Shown: positions 54,019-61,287, counted from the stretch's first letter. The stretch: DNA of 64,000 nucleotides from Natronolimnobius baerhuensis (GCF_002177135.1 NZ_MWPH01000003.1:434001-498000), one strand, 5' to 3'. A program made the numbers and translations. Notes: generated from the letters alone by a model not told the origin.

Positions 54019-56181
54019 ACCCTCGAACGCCAGGTCGACGAGTTTTCGCTCCGCCGCACGGAGATGGTAGTGATACGTCGGCGCAGAGACCGACAGCGTC
54101 GCAGCCAGGTCCTCACCGGTCCCCTCTCGCGGCCACTCGAAGAACCCGCCGTAGTGGGCCGCCTGCAACGCCTCGTACTGTTTGTCCGTCAGTCGCTCCT
54201 CGAGATAGGTATCGAGTTGCCGAGCCGACCGCGTCGTCCGCTCTCGGCGGGCCTCGAGTTCCGTATCGGGATACGCTGCAGTGATCGCATCGATCAGCGA
54301 CCGCGCTTCGACTTGCTGTGGAACCTCGAGAATCAGCGTCGAAACACCGTTTTCGGCGCGTGCCGTTCGAAGCCGCACGTCGTAGCTTCGCAGCACTTCC
54401 AGAAACGGCGTGACGCTGACCGTCACCTCGAACAGCGTCTCATCCTCGCCTTCGGATACCGTCGAAATCGTCTCGACCGTTGCCTTCTCTGCGGCCAGTT
54501 CGAGCAAATCCGTGTCCGCTGCCGTACTAAGAAAGATGACGATCTCGTCACCCCGGTCGATTGCCCCCTCGAGAACCAGTGGCTCATCAATCGCACTCGA
54601 GAGTCGATTGAGCAGGAGTCGCTCGTCCCCGCACCTAAGTTCGAGCTCGAGGCGGCTGTCAGTAAGCATCGCTCGCGTCCGCTCGACTGACCGGATGGCG
54701 TAGCCGATTGTCTCGCCGAGTTCGCCGAGGACGTCGCGTTCGCTCTCACTGAGCGCGTTTGCACCGCTCATATAGACGAGCAAAGCACCGTGTCTACGCT
54801 CGTCGTCGACCAGCGGGACCGCAAGCACCGTCTGAAAGCCGTAGGTCAGTGCCTCCTTTCGACGGCGCTCCCAGCCCGTGGTCTCAAGAACATTTTGGAC
54901 CTCCTGCAGTTCGCCGGTCTTGATCACGGTTTCGACGAGATCGGTTTCGGGTGCGCAGGGCCCGTCTTCTCGGACCTGATCGATGTACGCGGCATCGATT
55001 CCAGCCCACTCTGCCGGCTCGGGTGGCGTCTCGTCGGTCGTTGCGATCCAGGCGAATCGATAGCGATCCGTCTCCGCGAGTCGGTTACAGACGATTGAAA
55101 CGATCTCTTCGCGGGTCGTCGCCTGTGCCGTCCCGTGGTTGATCTCGCGAACGATCTCGTTGATGTGATTGAGTCGGGTGAGTTCCTCGTTTTTCCGTGT
55201 GAGCGTGCGGTCGTGTTCTCGAAGGAGTTGCTCGCGCTCTGCCCGATCCAGTGCCGCTTCGGTATTGGCCGCCAGAATCTGAATTGGCTCAGTCGTTGTC
55301 TCATCGAATCCACCGACTGCATCCGTCCCTGCGACCAACACGCCGTGGATCCCAAGTGGCACGATCAGTTCGTTCTGACAGAGTGGCTCCGTGCCAGCTG
55401 GCGCTGATTCCGGCCCCGGCATGCTCTCGCTTCCGCCGTCGCCGTTCGCATCGGTTCTCCCCTCAGAGTTGCCAGCCGAGAGACCCTCGTAATAGGTGCT
55501 CTCTCCTTCCGAAAAAACGTCCCAGACGATGCCCGAACCGCGGTGAAAGCTCGTCTCCGGATCGACGACTGTTTGTGGGTCGGTCCGGGAGGCCACATGC
55601 TCGAGTGCGCCCTCAGTTGGCTCGAATGCGTAGGCTGCGGCGACGGGAACGTCGAAAATCTCGCCGGCTGTCTCGACTGCCAGGCGATAGATGTCGGCTT
55701 TGTTCTCCGTTCGCATTAGATCCCGCGTCGTCTCGTGAAGCGTCGCGAGCGTCCGTTCGTAGCGTCGCTCGCTCTCCCGTAACTCTGTCTCGGTTCGGTA
55801 CTGCACCACTGCGTTCATGATCTGATTCGCCAGCAGCGTGTACTGTTCGTCACCAGTCCCCTTCTGGAGGTACTGCGTCACGCCAGCCGCAATCGCCTCA
55901 CTTGCGACCTCCTCGGAACCGCGCCCGGTAAAGAGAATAAAGGGGAGATTCGGATCATCCTCGCGAATCTGCTCTAACAACTCGAGACCGCTTAACTGTG
56001 GCATCTCGTAGTCACTGACGATGCAGTCGATGTCGTGGCTGTCGAACGCCTCGAGCGCCTCGTCGGTGCTCGTCGCTGATTTCGCGGTGATCGCGTCTTC
56101 CTCGTGCTCGAGCATTTGTCCGGCGATATCTGCAAATCCCGGTTCGTTGTCAACGACGAGGACGGTCATCGAGTTCGTCAT
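54007..56181 (-). CDS. Receiver/GAF/HTH-10 transcriptional regulator (Bat family)
   Basis: 724 residues from the ATG at 56181 (MTNSMTVLVVDNEPGFADIA). A receiver domain (about 5-125) has the phospho-Asp in DIDCIVSDYEMPQLSGLELL and the Lys in YLQKGTGDEQYT. Two GAF-type sensors follow (about 160-330 and 370-520; QTVLAVPLVDDERRHGALLV), then a Bat-type domain, and the C-terminal HTH-10 (LTDKQYEALQAAHYGGFFEW, EDLAATLSVSAPTYHYHLRA). So it joins phosphorelay input and DNA binding in one chain. Partner kinase and genes are unknown. It faces the tRNA-Asp region and its own start lies 407 bases from the first tRNA. Confidence 0.88.
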   Translation of the reverse strand: MTNSMTVLVVDNEPGFADIAGQMLEHEEDAITAKSATSTDEALEAFDSHDIDCIVSDYEMPQLSGLELLEQIREDDPNLPFILFTGRGSEEVASEAIAAGVTQYLQKGTGDEQYTLLANQIMNAVVQYRTETELRESERRYERTLATLHETTRDLMRTENKADIYRLAVETAGEIFDVPVAAAYAFEPTEGALEHVASRTDPQTVVDPETSFHRGSGIVWDVFSEGESTYYEGLSAGNSEGRTDANGDGGSESMPGPESAPAGTEPLCQNELIVPLGIHGVLVAGTDAVGGFDETTTEPIQILAANTEAALDRAEREQLLREHDRTLTRKNEELTRLNHINEIVREINHGTAQATTREEIVSIVCNRLAETDRYRFAWIATTDETPPEPAEWAGIDAAYIDQVREDGPCAPETDLVETVIKTGELQEVQNVLETTGWERRRKEALTYGFQTVLAVPLVDDERRHGALLVYMSGANALSESERDVLGELGETIGYAIRSVERTRAMLTDSRLELELRCGDERLLLNRLSSAIDEPLVLEGAIDRGDEIVIFLSTAADTDLLELAAEKATVETISTVSEGEDETLFEVTVSVTPFLEVLRSYDVRLRTARAENGVSTLILEVPQQVEARSLIDAITAAYPDTELEARRERTTRSARQLDTYLEERLTDKQYEALQAAHYGGFFEWPREGTGEDLAATLSVSAPTYHYHLRAAERKLVDLAFEGDSN

Positions 56182-56384
56182 ACCAGTCACAGTCGGTCGC
56201 GTCTGTTGTTCGACCAATGACGCGACCGCTACGTAAGTCGTTCCATCTGCTGACTTCCCAACTGCTGTCCTCGCGTGCGTGCCGAAATGCACAGTGACGT
56301 TCCACAGTTGCCGTCGCACCGTCGTAACCGCATCCGGTGGTCCGTCTTCTCGTTGCTGTCGCTCTCGAGTGACGCCGCCTCACT
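56182..56384. other. Upstream region of the HTH-10 regulator, no gene seen
   Basis: 203 bases, GC-rich, with no plausible protein or RNA. The promoter of the regulator should lie here. The repeat block begins at its far end. Confidence 0.4.
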
Positions 56385-56520
56385 CACGAATAACACACGC
56401 TCCGCGATGCTCGTTGATGTTGTTCGCGAAAGAAGACGCCCGAGGCGGGATTTGAACCGAAGCCAGACGTGCTCGCTCACTGCGTTCGCTGTGCGCGACT
56501 GGCAGGATTCATATCCCTGT
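56385..56520 (-). repeat. tRNA-Asp-associated repeat block A with degenerate tRNA 3' fragment
   Basis: A module of short repeats: a cacgctccgc-type segment (56385-56437), then gcccgaggcgggatttgaac (56438-56457), which resembles the 3' end of tRNA-Asp as read on the top strand, then gaagccagacgtgctcgctc and its continuation (56459-56510). The same elements recur at 59556-59850. One base pair order is changed (gag/ggag), so the fragment cannot be a functional tRNA. Reads as a scar or degenerate copy of the tRNA end. Confidence 0.6.
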
Positions 56521-56588
56521 TGCGGGTCTCTCGATTCAGTCCTCGCTCGTCGCTACGCTCCTCGCTCGAGAGTTGAAATCGAGAGAAC

Positions 56589-56660
56589 GCCCGGAGCGGG
56601 ATTTGAACCCGCGTCACAACCGTGACAGGGTTGTATGATGGGCCACTACACCATCCGGGC
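56589..56660 (-). tRNA. tRNA-Asp (anticodon GTC), copy 1
   Basis: On the minus strand gcccggatggtgtagtggcc opens the acceptor and D-arm, the anticodon arm is caacc-ctgtcac-ggttg with GTC, and the T-arm ends gggttcaaatcccgctccgggc. The acceptor pairs GCCCGGA with TCCGGGC. 72 bases, no CCA encoded. A second copy of the same sequence lies at 59914-59985, with about 23 identical upstream bases (5' flank). Confidence 0.93.
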
Positions 56661-56840
56661 TTACAACCAATCCTTTCCCGGTGAGTACCTTAAGGGTTCT
56701 GTTTCAGATCGCCGGACGAGAGTTGAATTGTCAACTTACTCTCTCGTTACGCGTCCCGGCTGTCAAACAGATCGGTGTCAACACTGTCGCGACTACGATA
56801 TGTGTACGGCCGCACCGAAAAATCGTGACAGCAATCCGTC

Positions 56841-59237
56841 TCAGTCGTCGTCGGCGACAATCGTCACGTCGTCGGATCGATTGCCTCCCACGTCCGCGTT
56901 CGCATCCGCATCCGTTTCGAAACGGCCAGTCAGAGACTGCAGTTCCGTTGCACGATCCGAGAGCGACGCCGCATTGGTGGCAATTTCGGTCACCGCACTC
57001 GTCTGTTCCTCCGCCGCTGCCGAGACGTTCTGTGCCCCGTCGGCTGTCTCTTTGCCAACGCTCGAGATTTCGTCGACCATCGTCGAGACCTCCTGTGCCG
57101 ACGCCGCCTGATCGTCGGTCGCCTCGTCAATCGACTGGACGCCGGCGTTTGCGTCCTCGACACTCTCGACAATCGAGTCAAGCGTCGTGAGCGTTCTGTC
57201 AATCGTCTCTCGGCCGTCCTCAATTTCCGTCTCCATCTCGCTCATGTCTGCGGCGACAGATTCCGTCGACGCTTCGACCGTTTGAACGAGGGATTCGACC
57301 TCGTCAGTCGCGTCAGCAGTTTCCTCTGCGAGTGACTTGACCTCGCTTGCGACGACGGCGAACCCATCACCAGCCTCGCCGGCCGTCGCCGCCTCGATGG
57401 AGGCGTTCAGAGCCAGCATATTGGTTTCCTCGGCGATTCGATCAATCAACTCGACGATTTCACCGATTCGCTCGACCTCTTCTTGCAGCGAGTCCATCTC
57501 CGCAGCCGTATCCACGGCCTTCGACTCGATTTGGTCCATCCGCTCGACGGCGTCGTTCGCCGCGACTGCACCCTCCTGGCCCAGTTCAGCCGCGTGGCCG
57601 GACTGCTCTGCGACCGTCTCCGAGGATGACGCGACCTCTTCTATCGTCGCCGAGAGGTCACTCATCGCTGCGGCTGCCGTATCGAGTTTCTCGCTCTGGG
57701 TCTCCGCACCCGCCGAAATCTCCTCGATACTCTCAGCGACCTCCCCGCTCGAGGCTTCGATCTCCGCCGTCGAGGCAGTTACGTCCTCACTCCGCTCGTC
57801 GACCTGTTCGGCGACGTCCTGAATCTGGACGACCATCCCTTCAATGTCAGCCAGCATTTCGTTTAGCGCTTCGCCGATTTCGGTCATGGCCTGACTCTCG
57901 CTGTCCGTCTCGAGCCGCCGGGTCAGATCGCCGTCGGCAGCGGCCTCAATCGATTCACGGTACTCCTCGGCTTTCGCCTCTAAGTGTCGGCTGAGTGCCT
58001 CCGCGTCGGCCTTGGCTTGCTCGGCGTCTGCCTCTGCCGTCTCGGCCTCGGATTTGGCCTGTTCGGCCTGCTCTTTGGCGTCCTCCGCCTCCTGCGCTCG
58101 CTGTTCGACTTCCGAGAGTTGACCTTTGAGCGTATCGCGAATCCGGGCAAACAACGTCGAGAGATCACCGAATTCATCGGTTCTGGACTGGTTGATCTCT
58201 ACCTCGAGATTTCCGTCCTCGATCTCCTCGGCGTACCCGGTCATCGTCTCGAGCGAGTTGTTAACGTCTCGAGAGATGACGCCGCCAACGACGACGAAGC
58301 CGAGAATGGCGATCCCGATTAACACGCCGATTGTCTGTGTTACCTCATCGACTGTCCCGAAGACGGTACTCTCGGGTGCGGCGACAGTCACCGCCCACGG
58401 TTTCTCCTCGAGGGGAACCGTCGCGACGACGACGTCGTTGTCCTCGAGCGCCTCGAGGTCACTCGTCACGTGATCGAGTCGTGACTCCGTCACGCTCGAC
58501 TGGAGGTGTGGCAGTTCCTCGAGCAGGACGAACTCCTCGAGAATCATGTCTGGGTCCTCGGCGAGGGTTACCTGTCCGCTTTCCGTTGATATCACCTGCA
58601 TTGTGCTCCCGTTCATCGGTGCCGTAAGGAGTTCGCTCTGTTCGGAGAGGTCGACCTCGATAACAATCGCATGGCTTGTGTGGCGACTAACTGGACTGGC
58701 GAATCCAATCTGCTGGCCGTCGTCAGTCTCGTACGGCTCGAACGAGCGGACGTCGTTCGGGTGTGCGAATGAATCGTAGTCGACCGCCCACGGTCGGTCA
58801 GATTCGTCAACCGTCTCACCCTCTCGTTCGTGGTCTGAACTGACCTCGATGGTTTCGTTGTCCATGTCGAAGTAGTGGATCGTCTGTACGTCCTCAGGAA
58901 GGATCCGAACGTTCGACTGGAGATCCACCCGGACTGCTCTGGTATCTCTGTCCGACAGGAGCGGATCATCAGAGATTCGCTGGGCGTGCTCACCACGGTC
59001 GCGCACGAAGTCGTCGATTGCCTGTGCCTCCCGGTCGGCGGCGTTGATCATCGTCTCTTCGGCGTCGTCCTCGACGCTCGCTTCCGCCTGTGCGAACGCG
59101 ACGTAGCCCGCCCCAAGCAGCGTTGCAGTGACAATGAGAATCGCGACTCCAATCTTGAGGAAATACCGACTCCGGACCCTATCGTATACTCGACGATGGA
59201 ACGAATCGCCGTCCCCATCGTCTTCTGCAGTCTCCAT
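56841..59237 (-). CDS. Methyl-accepting chemotaxis transducer (Htr-like)
   Basis: 798 residues from the ATG at 59237. TM1 (about 24-44: [20 protein letters not shown]), an external sensor part with dCache-like features (about 45-290; [20 protein letters not shown]), TM2 (about 300-323: [20 protein letters not shown]), HAMP (about 325-375), a helical coiled coil, and the MA signalling domain with the hairpin tip [20 protein letters not shown] and [18 protein letters not shown]. Predicted to send signals to CheA/CheW; the ligand is unknown. It is the only gene between the two tRNA-Asp copies. TATA-like ggttaagctta at 59259-59270 lies about 28 bases upstream. Confidence 0.93.
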
Positions 59238-59555
59238 ATACTCACATGTCAGAATCAATGGTTAAGCTTAGTGGCCCAAATCATGTGACACAGTCGCTCT
59301 ATCATGATATATTGGGTTGATTATCTTGGTGATGATATTGAATCCCACACGTCATTACGTGTCAAGCTGGCTGTCTCGTGACCCGACGACAACCGATCAA
59401 ACACACTCGAAAGATTTCATCGTGTCGTGCTTGTTCGCGGCGAGACAGCGCTCGAGGCAGAAGGTAATGCCAGCAGAAAGCGCCTGAGGCAGAATGTAAC
59501 CACGATTACAGCAAGACTGCTCCCTGATTTAGATCTCTCTTTCCATCTTTTCCGT
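59238..59555. other. AT-rich upstream region of the transducer gene
   Basis: 318 bases without a supported gene. It holds the transducer promoter (ggttaagctta, 59259-59270) and an AT-rich patch (tatcatgatatattgggttg around 59300). Nothing else recognised. Confidence 0.45.
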
Positions 59556-59633
59556 TCACGAAGTACGAGCACACGCTCCGCGGTGCTCGTCGATGTTGTT
59601 CGCTGAAGAAGACGCCCGGAGCGGGATGTGAAC
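59556..59633 (-). repeat. Repeat module B1 with tRNA-Asp 3'-like fragment
   Basis: Starts tcacgaagtacgagcacacg (59556-59575), continues to gaagaagac and ends in gcccggagcgggatgtgaac (59614-59633), the tRNA-Asp 3' end with one mismatch (gatgtg for gatttg). An almost identical module begins exactly 300 bases later at 59856. A divergent relative lies at 56385-56457. Confidence 0.6.
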
Positions 59634-59757
59634 AACCTGAACTCGCTCACGTTGCTCGCTCGTTCCGTCGTTCAAATCCCTCGTCAGCGTTTTTCAAAAT
59701 TCGAGGATGGTCGCAACACTGCAAGCTGGTTGCTCAGGAATTGAATTTCGAGAGAAC

Positions 59758-59837
59758 GCCCGGAGCGGGATTTGAACCGAAGCCAGACGTGCTCGCTCAC
59801 TGCGTTCGCTGTGCGCGACTGGCAGGGTTCAAATCCC
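59758..59837 (-). repeat. Repeat module B2: second tRNA-like 3' fragment with 12-bp inverted repeat
   Basis: gcccggagcgggatttgaac (59758-59777) is an exact tRNA-Asp 3'-end match, followed by gaagccagacgtgctcgctc and its continuation, as in block A. gggatttgaacc (59766-59777) and ggttcaaatccc (59826-59837) form a perfect 12-bp inverted repeat about 48 bases apart. Both arms resemble T-arm sequences, one on each strand. Confidence 0.6.
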
Positions 59838-59855
59838 TCTTTTCGTCTTTTTCGC

Positions 59856-59913
59856 TCACGAAGTACGAGCACACGCTCCGCGGTGCTCGTCAGAGTTGTT
59901 CGCGAAAGAAGAC
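59856..59913 (-). repeat. Repeat module B3 leading into tRNA-Asp copy 2
   Basis: tcacgaagtacgagcacacg repeats exactly as at 59556, with small changes after it (cagagttgttcgcgaaagaa), and runs straight into the tRNA-Asp gene at 59914 in the same relative position that module B1 runs into its fragment. The period is 300 bases. Confidence 0.6.
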
Positions 59914-59985
59914 GCCCGGAGCGGGATTTGAACCCGCGTCACAACCGTGACAGGGTTGTATGATGGGCCACTACACCATCCGGGC
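59914..59985 (-). tRNA. tRNA-Asp (anticodon GTC), copy 2
   Basis: Same 72-base sequence as copy 1 at 56589-56660, and the next 23 bases beyond its 5' end also match. On the minus strand it reads gcccggatggtgtagtggcc, caacc-ctgtcac-ggttg, with GTC. The two copies are 3325 bases apart, with a transducer gene and repeat modules between. Confidence 0.93.
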
Positions 59986-60233
59986 TTACAACCAATCCTT
60001 TCCCGGTGACAGTATTAAGGCTTTCCAATCAACCGCCGTGTGGTACGGCGAATCGAGCCATGAATGCGAGTGAATCAGTCCCGAACTCGAGCGAGATCTC
60101 TCAGGACTGTTCTTGAATCAACTTGTCACACATTAGCACGACTCTGGGGCACAGTCGACCAGAAATAGTTACGGCGCTGATCTTATCACACAACTGTCGA
60201 GTTCGAAGTTGTGCGATAGTCGCCTCGAGAAGT

Positions 60234-60303
60234 GCGCCGACCGGGAATTGAACCCGGGCTAGAGCCTTGGGAAGGCTCTGTCCTACCACTGGACCACCGG
60301 CGC
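60234..60303 (-). tRNA. tRNA-Gly (anticodon CCC)
   Basis: Minus strand: gcgccggtggtccagtggta acceptor and D-arm, anticodon arm gagcc-ttcccaa-ggctc with CCC, T-arm cccgggttcaattcccgg and acceptor end tcggcgc pairing with gcgccgg (one G-U). About 70 bases, no CCA encoded. Confidence 0.85.
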
Positions 60304-60354
60304 GCACTCACTGTGATCGTTCGCGCCACGATTCGCAGTTCCAGCGGAACTGCT

Positions 60355-60369
60355 CACCACCGGCGCGCA
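60355..60369 (-). repeat. Copy of the tRNA-Gly 5' end upstream of the gene
   Basis: The 14-base segment accaccggcgcgca found at the 5' end of tRNA-Gly (60293-60306) occurs again here, about 62 bases further upstream. Only the 5' end is duplicated. Possibly a scar; chance is not excluded. Confidence 0.35.
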
Positions 60370-60492
60370 TTTCGTCGTAGTCGATGTTGACACTTGAACG
60401 TAGCGCTCGAGTCGCTCATCAAAAGTTCGCACTCGTCCAGTTTTTCGCCTCGAGGGGAGTTTATTAGGCGCTGCTGTCCGTAGGAGTGGCAT

Positions 60493-61287
60493 ATGCTCGA
60501 CCTTCGGTTTTCGGACGCAGAATTGGACCAGCGACGCGATCACATTCTGGCCTTTATTCAGGACCGCGTGGATGCGGCGGGTGCTGACGGTGCTGTCCTT
60601 GGCCTGTCTGGGGGAATCGACAGTACGCTCACCGCGTTTCTCGCTGTTGAGGCACTCGGCGCGGAACACGTCCACGGACTCGTCTTGCCGGCGACAGTCA
60701 GTAGCGAGGGCAATATGAGCGACGCCGAACGGGTTGCCCAGGACCTCGAGATTAGCTACGACGTCATCGAGATCGAACCGCTCGTCGACTCGTTGCTCGA
60801 GGTCTATCCCGGGGCTGAAGGCGACCGCGAAGCAGTTGGAAATGCGCGTGCGCGCGTCCGTGGTGTGATGAATTATCTGGTGGCGAACCACGAGAACCGA
60901 CTCGTCCTCGGGACGGGCAACCGTAGCGAGGCCGCTGTTGGCTACTTCACCAAGTACGGCGACGGGGCGGTGGACTGTCACCCAATCGGGACCCTCTACA
61001 AGGGACAGGTTCGCCAACTCGCACGCCACGTCGGCGTTCCCGAGGAACTGGCCGCCAAGACAGCGACCGCAGAGCTGTGGGCCGACCAGACCGACGAGGA
61101 CGAACTGGGACTCAGCTACGAGGTGCTTGATTCGATCCTTGCGACGCATATCGACGGGCCACTCTCTGTCGGCGCGACCTGCCGCCTGCTCGAGGTGGAT
61201 GTTGAGACCGTCGAGCGAGTTCGGACACTGTACGAGCAAAGCGAGCACAAGCGACACGTCCCGCCAGCGCCGGACCCACTCGAGTAA
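60493..61287 (+). CDS. nadE: NAD synthetase (NH3-dependent)
   Basis: 264 residues, short NadE without glutaminase domain. Converts deamido-NAD+ to NAD+ with ATP and ammonia. PP-loop GLSGGIDSTLTAFLAVEALG, then GVMNYLVANHENRLVLGTGN, RSEAAVGYFTKYGDGAVDCH, PIGTLYKGQVRQLARHVGVP and TATAELWADQTDEDELGLSY, all typical. Starts at ATG 60493 in front of LDLRFSDAELDQRRDHILAF. Ends with basic-acidic tail. Independent of its neighbours. Confidence 0.95.
   Translation: MLDLRFSDAELDQRRDHILAFIQDRVDAAGADGAVLGLSGGIDSTLTAFLAVEALGAEHVHGLVLPATVSSEGNMSDAERVAQDLEISYDVIEIEPLVDSLLEVYPGAEGDREAVGNARARVRGVMNYLVANHENRLVLGTGNRSEAAVGYFTKYGDGAVDCHPIGTLYKGQVRQLARHVGVPEELAAKTATAELWADQTDEDELGLSYEVLDSILATHIDGPLSVGATCRLLEVDVETVERVRTLYEQSEHKRHVPPAPDPLE

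Follow-up and report, generated by a model that had tools for sequence, protein, structure and literature searches.

Hairpin units carrying copies of tRNA 3' ends behind the tRNA-Asp genes of Natronolimnobius baerhuensis, a widespread haloarchaeal family possibly kept as folded tRNA trailers

The window, a 64-kb stretch of DNA from Natronolimnobius baerhuensis, contains two tRNA-Asp genes with a chemotaxis transducer gene between them and a number of tRNA fragments behind each (Table 1). A previous sequence-only reading had noticed the two identical tRNA genes, the transducer as the sole gene between them, and three further copies of the tRNA 3' end on the same strand. All of this was confirmed, by ARAGORN, which places both tRNA genes on the minus strand, by the HAMP and MCPsignal domains found in the transducer, and by the matches of the copies to the tRNA. 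The two tRNA-Asp genes are identical in sequence and belong to a block of 117 bp, including about 40 nucleotides upstream, with 93% identity. The copies span 21 nucleotides from the T-loop to the discriminator, and practically none would be expected by chance in 64 kb. What had been overlooked is that each copy closes a larger folded unit, with an inverted T-arm about 65 nucleotides upstream of it.

Table 1. Features of the tRNA-Asp region, in positions of the window
Feature	Position	Strand	Basis
Hairpin A (partial), additional unit of tRNA-Asp1	56378..56436	-	
tRNA-Asp 3'-end copy (19/21), closes the tRNA-Asp1 unit	56437..56457	-	
Hairpin B, tRNA-Asp1 unit; core almost the same as in unit 1 of tRNA-Asp2	56444..56519	-	
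Hairpin A, tRNA-Asp1 unit; type as in unit 2 of tRNA-Asp2	56527..56587	-	
tRNA-Asp(GTC), copy 1	56588..56660	-	ARAGORN and Rfam RF00005
Haloarchaeal transducer (HAMP, MCPsignal), between both tRNA-Asp genes	56841..59237	-	Pfam, synteny
Hairpin A, third, incomplete unit of tRNA-Asp2	59546..59612	-	
tRNA-Asp 3'-end copy (20/21), closes unit 2 of tRNA-Asp2	59613..59633	-	
Hairpin B, unit 2 of tRNA-Asp2; different core type (ACGGAACGAGCG...)	59619..59682	-	
Hairpin A, unit 2 of tRNA-Asp2	59694..59756	-	
tRNA-Asp 3'-end copy (21/21), closes unit 1 of tRNA-Asp2	59757..59777	-	
Hairpin B, unit 1 of tRNA-Asp2 (antisense T-arm, core, sense T-arm)	59763..59839	-	predicted fold
Hairpin A, unit 1 of tRNA-Asp2 (stem, GAAC...GTGA tip, inserted loop hairpin)	59846..59912	-	predicted fold
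tRNA-Asp(GTC), copy 2, with the larger array behind it	59913..59985	-	ARAGORN and Rfam RF00005

The transducer itself had been suspected to be a mobile cassette held by the direct repeats. Synteny does not bear this out, as an htr gene is located between tRNA-Asp copies in seven sampled genomes which represent at least four genera, with htr identities of 58–66% among these genomes and 92% within the genus. A comparison with relatives, which had been proposed as a check, showed htr to be absent from other genera; a strain-variable htr cassette was ruled out by the same synteny, since an arrangement common to at least four genera indicates an old segmental history. Five further genomes have tRNA-Asp copies 180–430 bp apart without htr, and of twenty loci inspected in the Natrialbaceae the majority have at least two tRNA-Asp genes close together. 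Judged from gene order, the pairing of tRNA-Asp genes goes far back in the Natrialbaceae, and the intervening transducer is a resident gene outside the hairpin unit. In one of the seven genomes (G166, L292, C3:38500-47000) tRNA-Asp and htr occur in tandem twice, with two different transducer genes. The gene order tRNA-Gly/nadE/tRNA-Thr is kept in many haloarchaeal genera.

Read on the tRNA strand, a unit starts directly behind the tRNA with hairpin A, a variable paired stem with an invariant tandem G.A tip, which is followed by hairpin B. The latter consists of an antisense T-arm (GGGATTTGAAC), a GA-rich core of about 35–60 nucleotides, and a sense copy (GGTTCAAATCCC and onwards to the acceptor strand) which repeats the host tRNA from the T-loop to the 3' end. 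Units are about 100–150 nucleotides in size and up to three occur in tandem. In the array of tRNA-Asp2 two units are complete and are followed by one more hairpin A; tRNA-Asp1 has a single unit and a portion of another. When the region 55800–60900 was searched against Rfam 15 at the gathering score, only tRNA matches were obtained and no family for the units, and the open papers in PubMed Central, to which the literature search was confined, hold no description of tRNA-trailing hairpin units. As far as this limited search reaches, the unit family is new.

The units are not a peculiarity of tRNA-Asp. A search with the tRNA-Asp stretch gave weaker matches in the genome, also behind tRNAs (Val, Ser, Phe, Gly, Leu, His, and Ala). 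By parsing of whole units about 27 of the 42 tRNAs of this genome (29 by eye) and about 29 of 43 in a congener are followed by units, some of which are decayed; a strict detector yielded 23/42 and 25/44 for these two and 20/41 for a genome of another family, and another strict detector based on 11-nucleotide arms, which undercounts units, 16/42. The sense copies fit their own tRNA, 23 of 42 matching at 16 or more of 19 positions as compared to 29 matches, isoacceptors among them, in 1718 cross comparisons. By our own count 16 of the 18 distinct places with a hairpin B pattern in this genome lie just behind a tRNA; of the two exceptions one looks like a chance match and the other lies 5 kb beyond tRNA-Pro(TGG). 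Two tRNAs, tRNA-Ala-TGC and tRNA-Ser-GCT (ahead of an S13-like gene), had no units in all three surveyed genomes, and both are judged from their flanks to sit in operons. The presence of a unit at a given tRNA agrees within the genus (Fisher p=0.011) and not between families (p=0.75), which means that no given tRNA needs its unit.

Beyond this genus, 260 of 292 genomes of Halobacteria and 73 of 76 genera contain the pattern ATTTGAA-N31-61-GTTCAAAT, for which the reversed control gave a single match. The pattern misses tRNAs with other T-loops. Such a case is tRNA-Gly-CCC in Haloferax larsenii, Halobaculum, Salinibaculum, and others, where the arms of the unit (GAATTGAA/TTCAATT) follow the T-loop of the host. 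For 22 of 24 example loci from other genomes a tRNA was located 50–270 nucleotides upstream on the same strand, and haloarchaeal megaplasmids carry units together with their tRNAs. In 119 genomes from other classes of the phylum the 40 pattern matches counted by us compare to 31 for the control, which is background. Annotated phages contributed only tRNA genes among the matches listed. Six high-GC viral contigs (L330, L334, L336, L341, L326, and L343) have long near-perfect T-arm palindromes, GGATTTGAACC..CCAGAGG and CCTCTGG..GGTTCAAATCC, a bacterial parallel. In one genome (G144 C8:11025-11159) two weak partial tRNA matches of 29.5 bits each lie next to each other and are possibly tRNA relics.

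The 3' ends of tRNA genes are favourite landing sites of mobile elements, and the sequence-only reading had accordingly interpreted the fragments as repeated integration or decay at tRNA-Asp, or as a cassette between direct repeats of the tRNA, with the integrating element possibly lost. The copies are indeed direct repeats and, like attachment sites, begin in the T-loop, and the reported lack of an integrase holds, no credible match being present in the 64-kb window. An interpretation as integration scars is nevertheless largely refuted and in our view highly improbable, being contradicted by the occurrence of like units behind some 27–29 of 42 tRNAs and throughout the class, by the internal inverted T-arm and the conserved fold, and by a pattern scan of 2.9 million viral contigs, which revealed no unit of the hairpin A plus B kind. 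A genuine integration in the same genome shows what such an event looks like: an element of about 4.9 kb with a tyrosine integrase, a DUF1424 Rep, and a copy of the tRNA 3' end at its far end is integrated in tRNA-Pro(TGG) (L312, C3:58028-62950), and has moved the tRNA-Pro hairpin unit to this far end, 5 kb away. This contradicts the idea of a lost element at tRNA-Asp as well, and, as the unit was displaced by an integrase-bearing element, the hairpin unit is separate from the integration product. At another locus (L073:1430-1560) a hairpin unit stands behind a tRNA-Val 3' end and the tRNA gene is absent; this is probably the far end of an integrated element.

Each unit is predicted to fold into two hairpins. 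Covariation was examined for hairpin A alone, since whole units misalign through loop insertions. For thirty different hairpin A sequences, all equally long, an alignment without gaps was obtained, in which the tandem G.A (columns 8-9 and 20-21) was invariant and 94% of the cells paired. The covariation score was 0.617 as compared to 0.232 for shuffled and at most 0.149 for slid alignments, and 59 cells with double changes were observed as compared to 17.5. As this set had been selected with a stem criterion, the test was repeated with 31 sequences selected by the tip only: partners formed 6.23 of 7 pairs versus 4.83 (maximum 5.26) when shuffled, and AC/GT covaried with GC/GC at the inner two pairs. 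Hairpin A is thus a structured element, with covariation above shuffled and slid controls. The tip with at least four uninterrupted base pairs of stem occurred in 49 of 312 tRNA 3' flanks, and neither on the opposite strand nor upstream (0 each). Internal 2x2 loops of GA/GA numbered 260 on the tRNA strand versus 13 on the other, a ratio somewhat inflated by the preference of the energy model for tandem GA. That the stems are real is indicated by 129 TC/TC loops on the non-tRNA strand. In the stems of hairpin B 137 G.U were counted versus 64 A.C, as expected if the tRNA strand folds. The folding form would then be RNA or a displaced single DNA strand, since a double-strand cruciform would lack strand bias. 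When pairing between tRNA and trailer was examined as a possible function of the units, only 53 of 153 minimum-energy folds kept the two apart.

These data bear on the proposal that the units are functionless quasi-palindromes, in which template switching together with gene conversion in the polyploid haloarchaea makes and homogenises T-arm copies. Such a process would account for arms which copy the local tRNA and for cores spread by recombination, and it agrees with the finding that, where copy and tRNA differ, antisense Watson-Crick matches favour the tRNA over the copy by 26 to 17. It would give neither the strand-specific tandem GA nor an invariant hairpin A tip with covarying stems. Moreover, precise deletion between the direct repeats is easy and restores a normal locus, so that persistence across the class speaks against pure junk, and we regard this origin as unlikely.

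How units come and go was studied by comparing the 3' flanks of orthologous tRNAs of two congeners, where gain and loss of a unit are indistinguishable. At many of these tRNAs the two congeners differ in the number of entire units, and the breakpoint coincides with the tRNA 3' end or lies close to it. Clear cases are those with a conserved flank beyond the array: two units versus none at Ala-CGC (tail 90% identical), none versus one at Leu-GAG (89%) and Leu-CAA (72%), and one versus two at Gln-TTG (93%). A recombination history at the tRNA end, as suggested by the sequence-only reading, is to this extent correct, the 3'-end copies being direct repeats which bound units that come and go there. 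At Arg-CCT and Thr-CGT hairpin A was retained and the core of hairpin B replaced, and such retention is frequent. Hairpin B modules are also common to different tRNAs of one genome, with edges in the T-arm at GGATTTGAA...TTCAAATCC. In the congener G104, for example, Ser-TGA and Leu-TAA are 98.4% identical over 64 nucleotides with both flanks unrelated beyond, and in G000 Lys-TTT and Lys-CTT are 100% identical over 129 nucleotides.

On the Haloarcula halophila plasmid NZ_CP119561.1, a tRNA-array plasmid with an adjoining TROVE-domain gene (L313:1420-1570), a tRNA-Cys-like gene is split exactly at G53/T54 by an element of about 70 nucleotides with a hairpin B core. This interruption, the start of the copies at G53/T54, and the strand-specific imperfect hairpin with its variable tip could all be explained by integron-like cassettes recombining as single strands, with folded hairpin B as the recombination site (attC-like), the tRNA T-arm as docking site (attI-like), and a tyrosine recombinase acting in trans, which would insert cassettes beside the tRNA by strand exchange at G53^T54. 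The position of additional units fits as well, being mostly proximal to the tRNA (Ala-GGC, Gln-TTG, Ser-CGA, and Leu-TAA), whereas the Met and Gly-GCC arrays differ at the distal end. The model gives hairpin A no role, the units carry no genes and the arrays in the window no accompanying recombinase, and new units fit their own tRNA including the acceptor strand, unlike a foreign cassette. While this process is a serious rival of the trailer interpretation, its probability is low. Lower still is the chance that gene-less integron-like arrays, whose folded single-strand hairpins a trans-acting host recombinase would recombine at the T-arm, form a dedicated system which rebuilds or protects tRNA 3' ends. 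Small mobile repeats such as IS605-derived PATEs or palindrome-targeting SMRs, as in Haloquadratum, were considered too, the units being small, palindromic, non-coding, and haloarchaeal, and SMR-A elements being known to insert into palindromes (PMC3119063). A relationship to them is very unlikely in view of the confinement of the units to tRNA 3' flanks, their tRNA duplication of about 21 nucleotides, which PATEs and SMRs do not make, and stems which vary in sequence and keep their structure.

The explanation favoured here, with a probability of roughly 0.55, is that the fragments are parts of non-coding units which recombine, occur throughout the Halobacteria as one family, and are kept as folded tRNA trailers. 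Homologous recombination between the tRNA-end copies of about 21 nucleotides would add and delete units, recombination through the T-arm arms common to all tRNAs would spread the cores, and selection would keep the units for a transcript which folds into a structured trailer. This trailer may mark the 3' boundary of tRNA transcripts, in termination or in 3'-end maturation. Two observations make such a role plausible: transcription in Haloferax volcanii can be terminated by hairpins, by S12 with 59% in vivo (PMC7237163), and the presumed operon tRNAs Ala-TGC and Ser-GCT are without units in all three genomes. A terminator T-run was tried as a discriminating sign and did not discriminate, T-runs being no commoner behind tRNAs with units than behind those without.

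If this holds, the unit family would change how haloarchaeal tRNA trailers, the annotation of tRNA fragments, and supposed integration scars are read. The units would also provide a system testable with Haloferax genetics for archaeal tRNA termination and processing, and one for the spread of short repeats via recombination through tRNA T-arms.

Among known systems, REP and BIME sequences are dispersed short intergenic hairpins like the units, but are not tied to tRNAs and do not copy a host gene in their arms. The tRNA-like elements of Haloferax volcanii (Hoelzle 2012) are reportedly tRNA-derived structures outside tRNA genes. With the PATE, SMR, and MITE elements of Haloquadratum walsbyi the units share small size and non-coding, palindromic haloarchaeal repeats, whereas those elements are not tRNA-bound, copy no tRNA, and are constant in sequence (PMC3119063). 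The attL and attR sites of archaeal tyrosine-recombinase elements, like the units, follow an intact tRNA and directly repeat its 3' part from the T-loop onwards; the units differ in having no integrase, a size of about 100–150 nucleotides, an internal inverted T-arm, and a structured form, and in being present at most tRNAs with up to three in tandem. In integron attC arrays, finally, strand-specific imperfect hairpins with a variable tip bound the units in the same manner, the boundary is G^TT, and extra units lie mostly at the fixed end, though some of the haloarchaeal ones are distal, while the haloarchaeal arrays have no IntI in the window, gene-less cassettes, and a boundary sequence which is the host tRNA itself.
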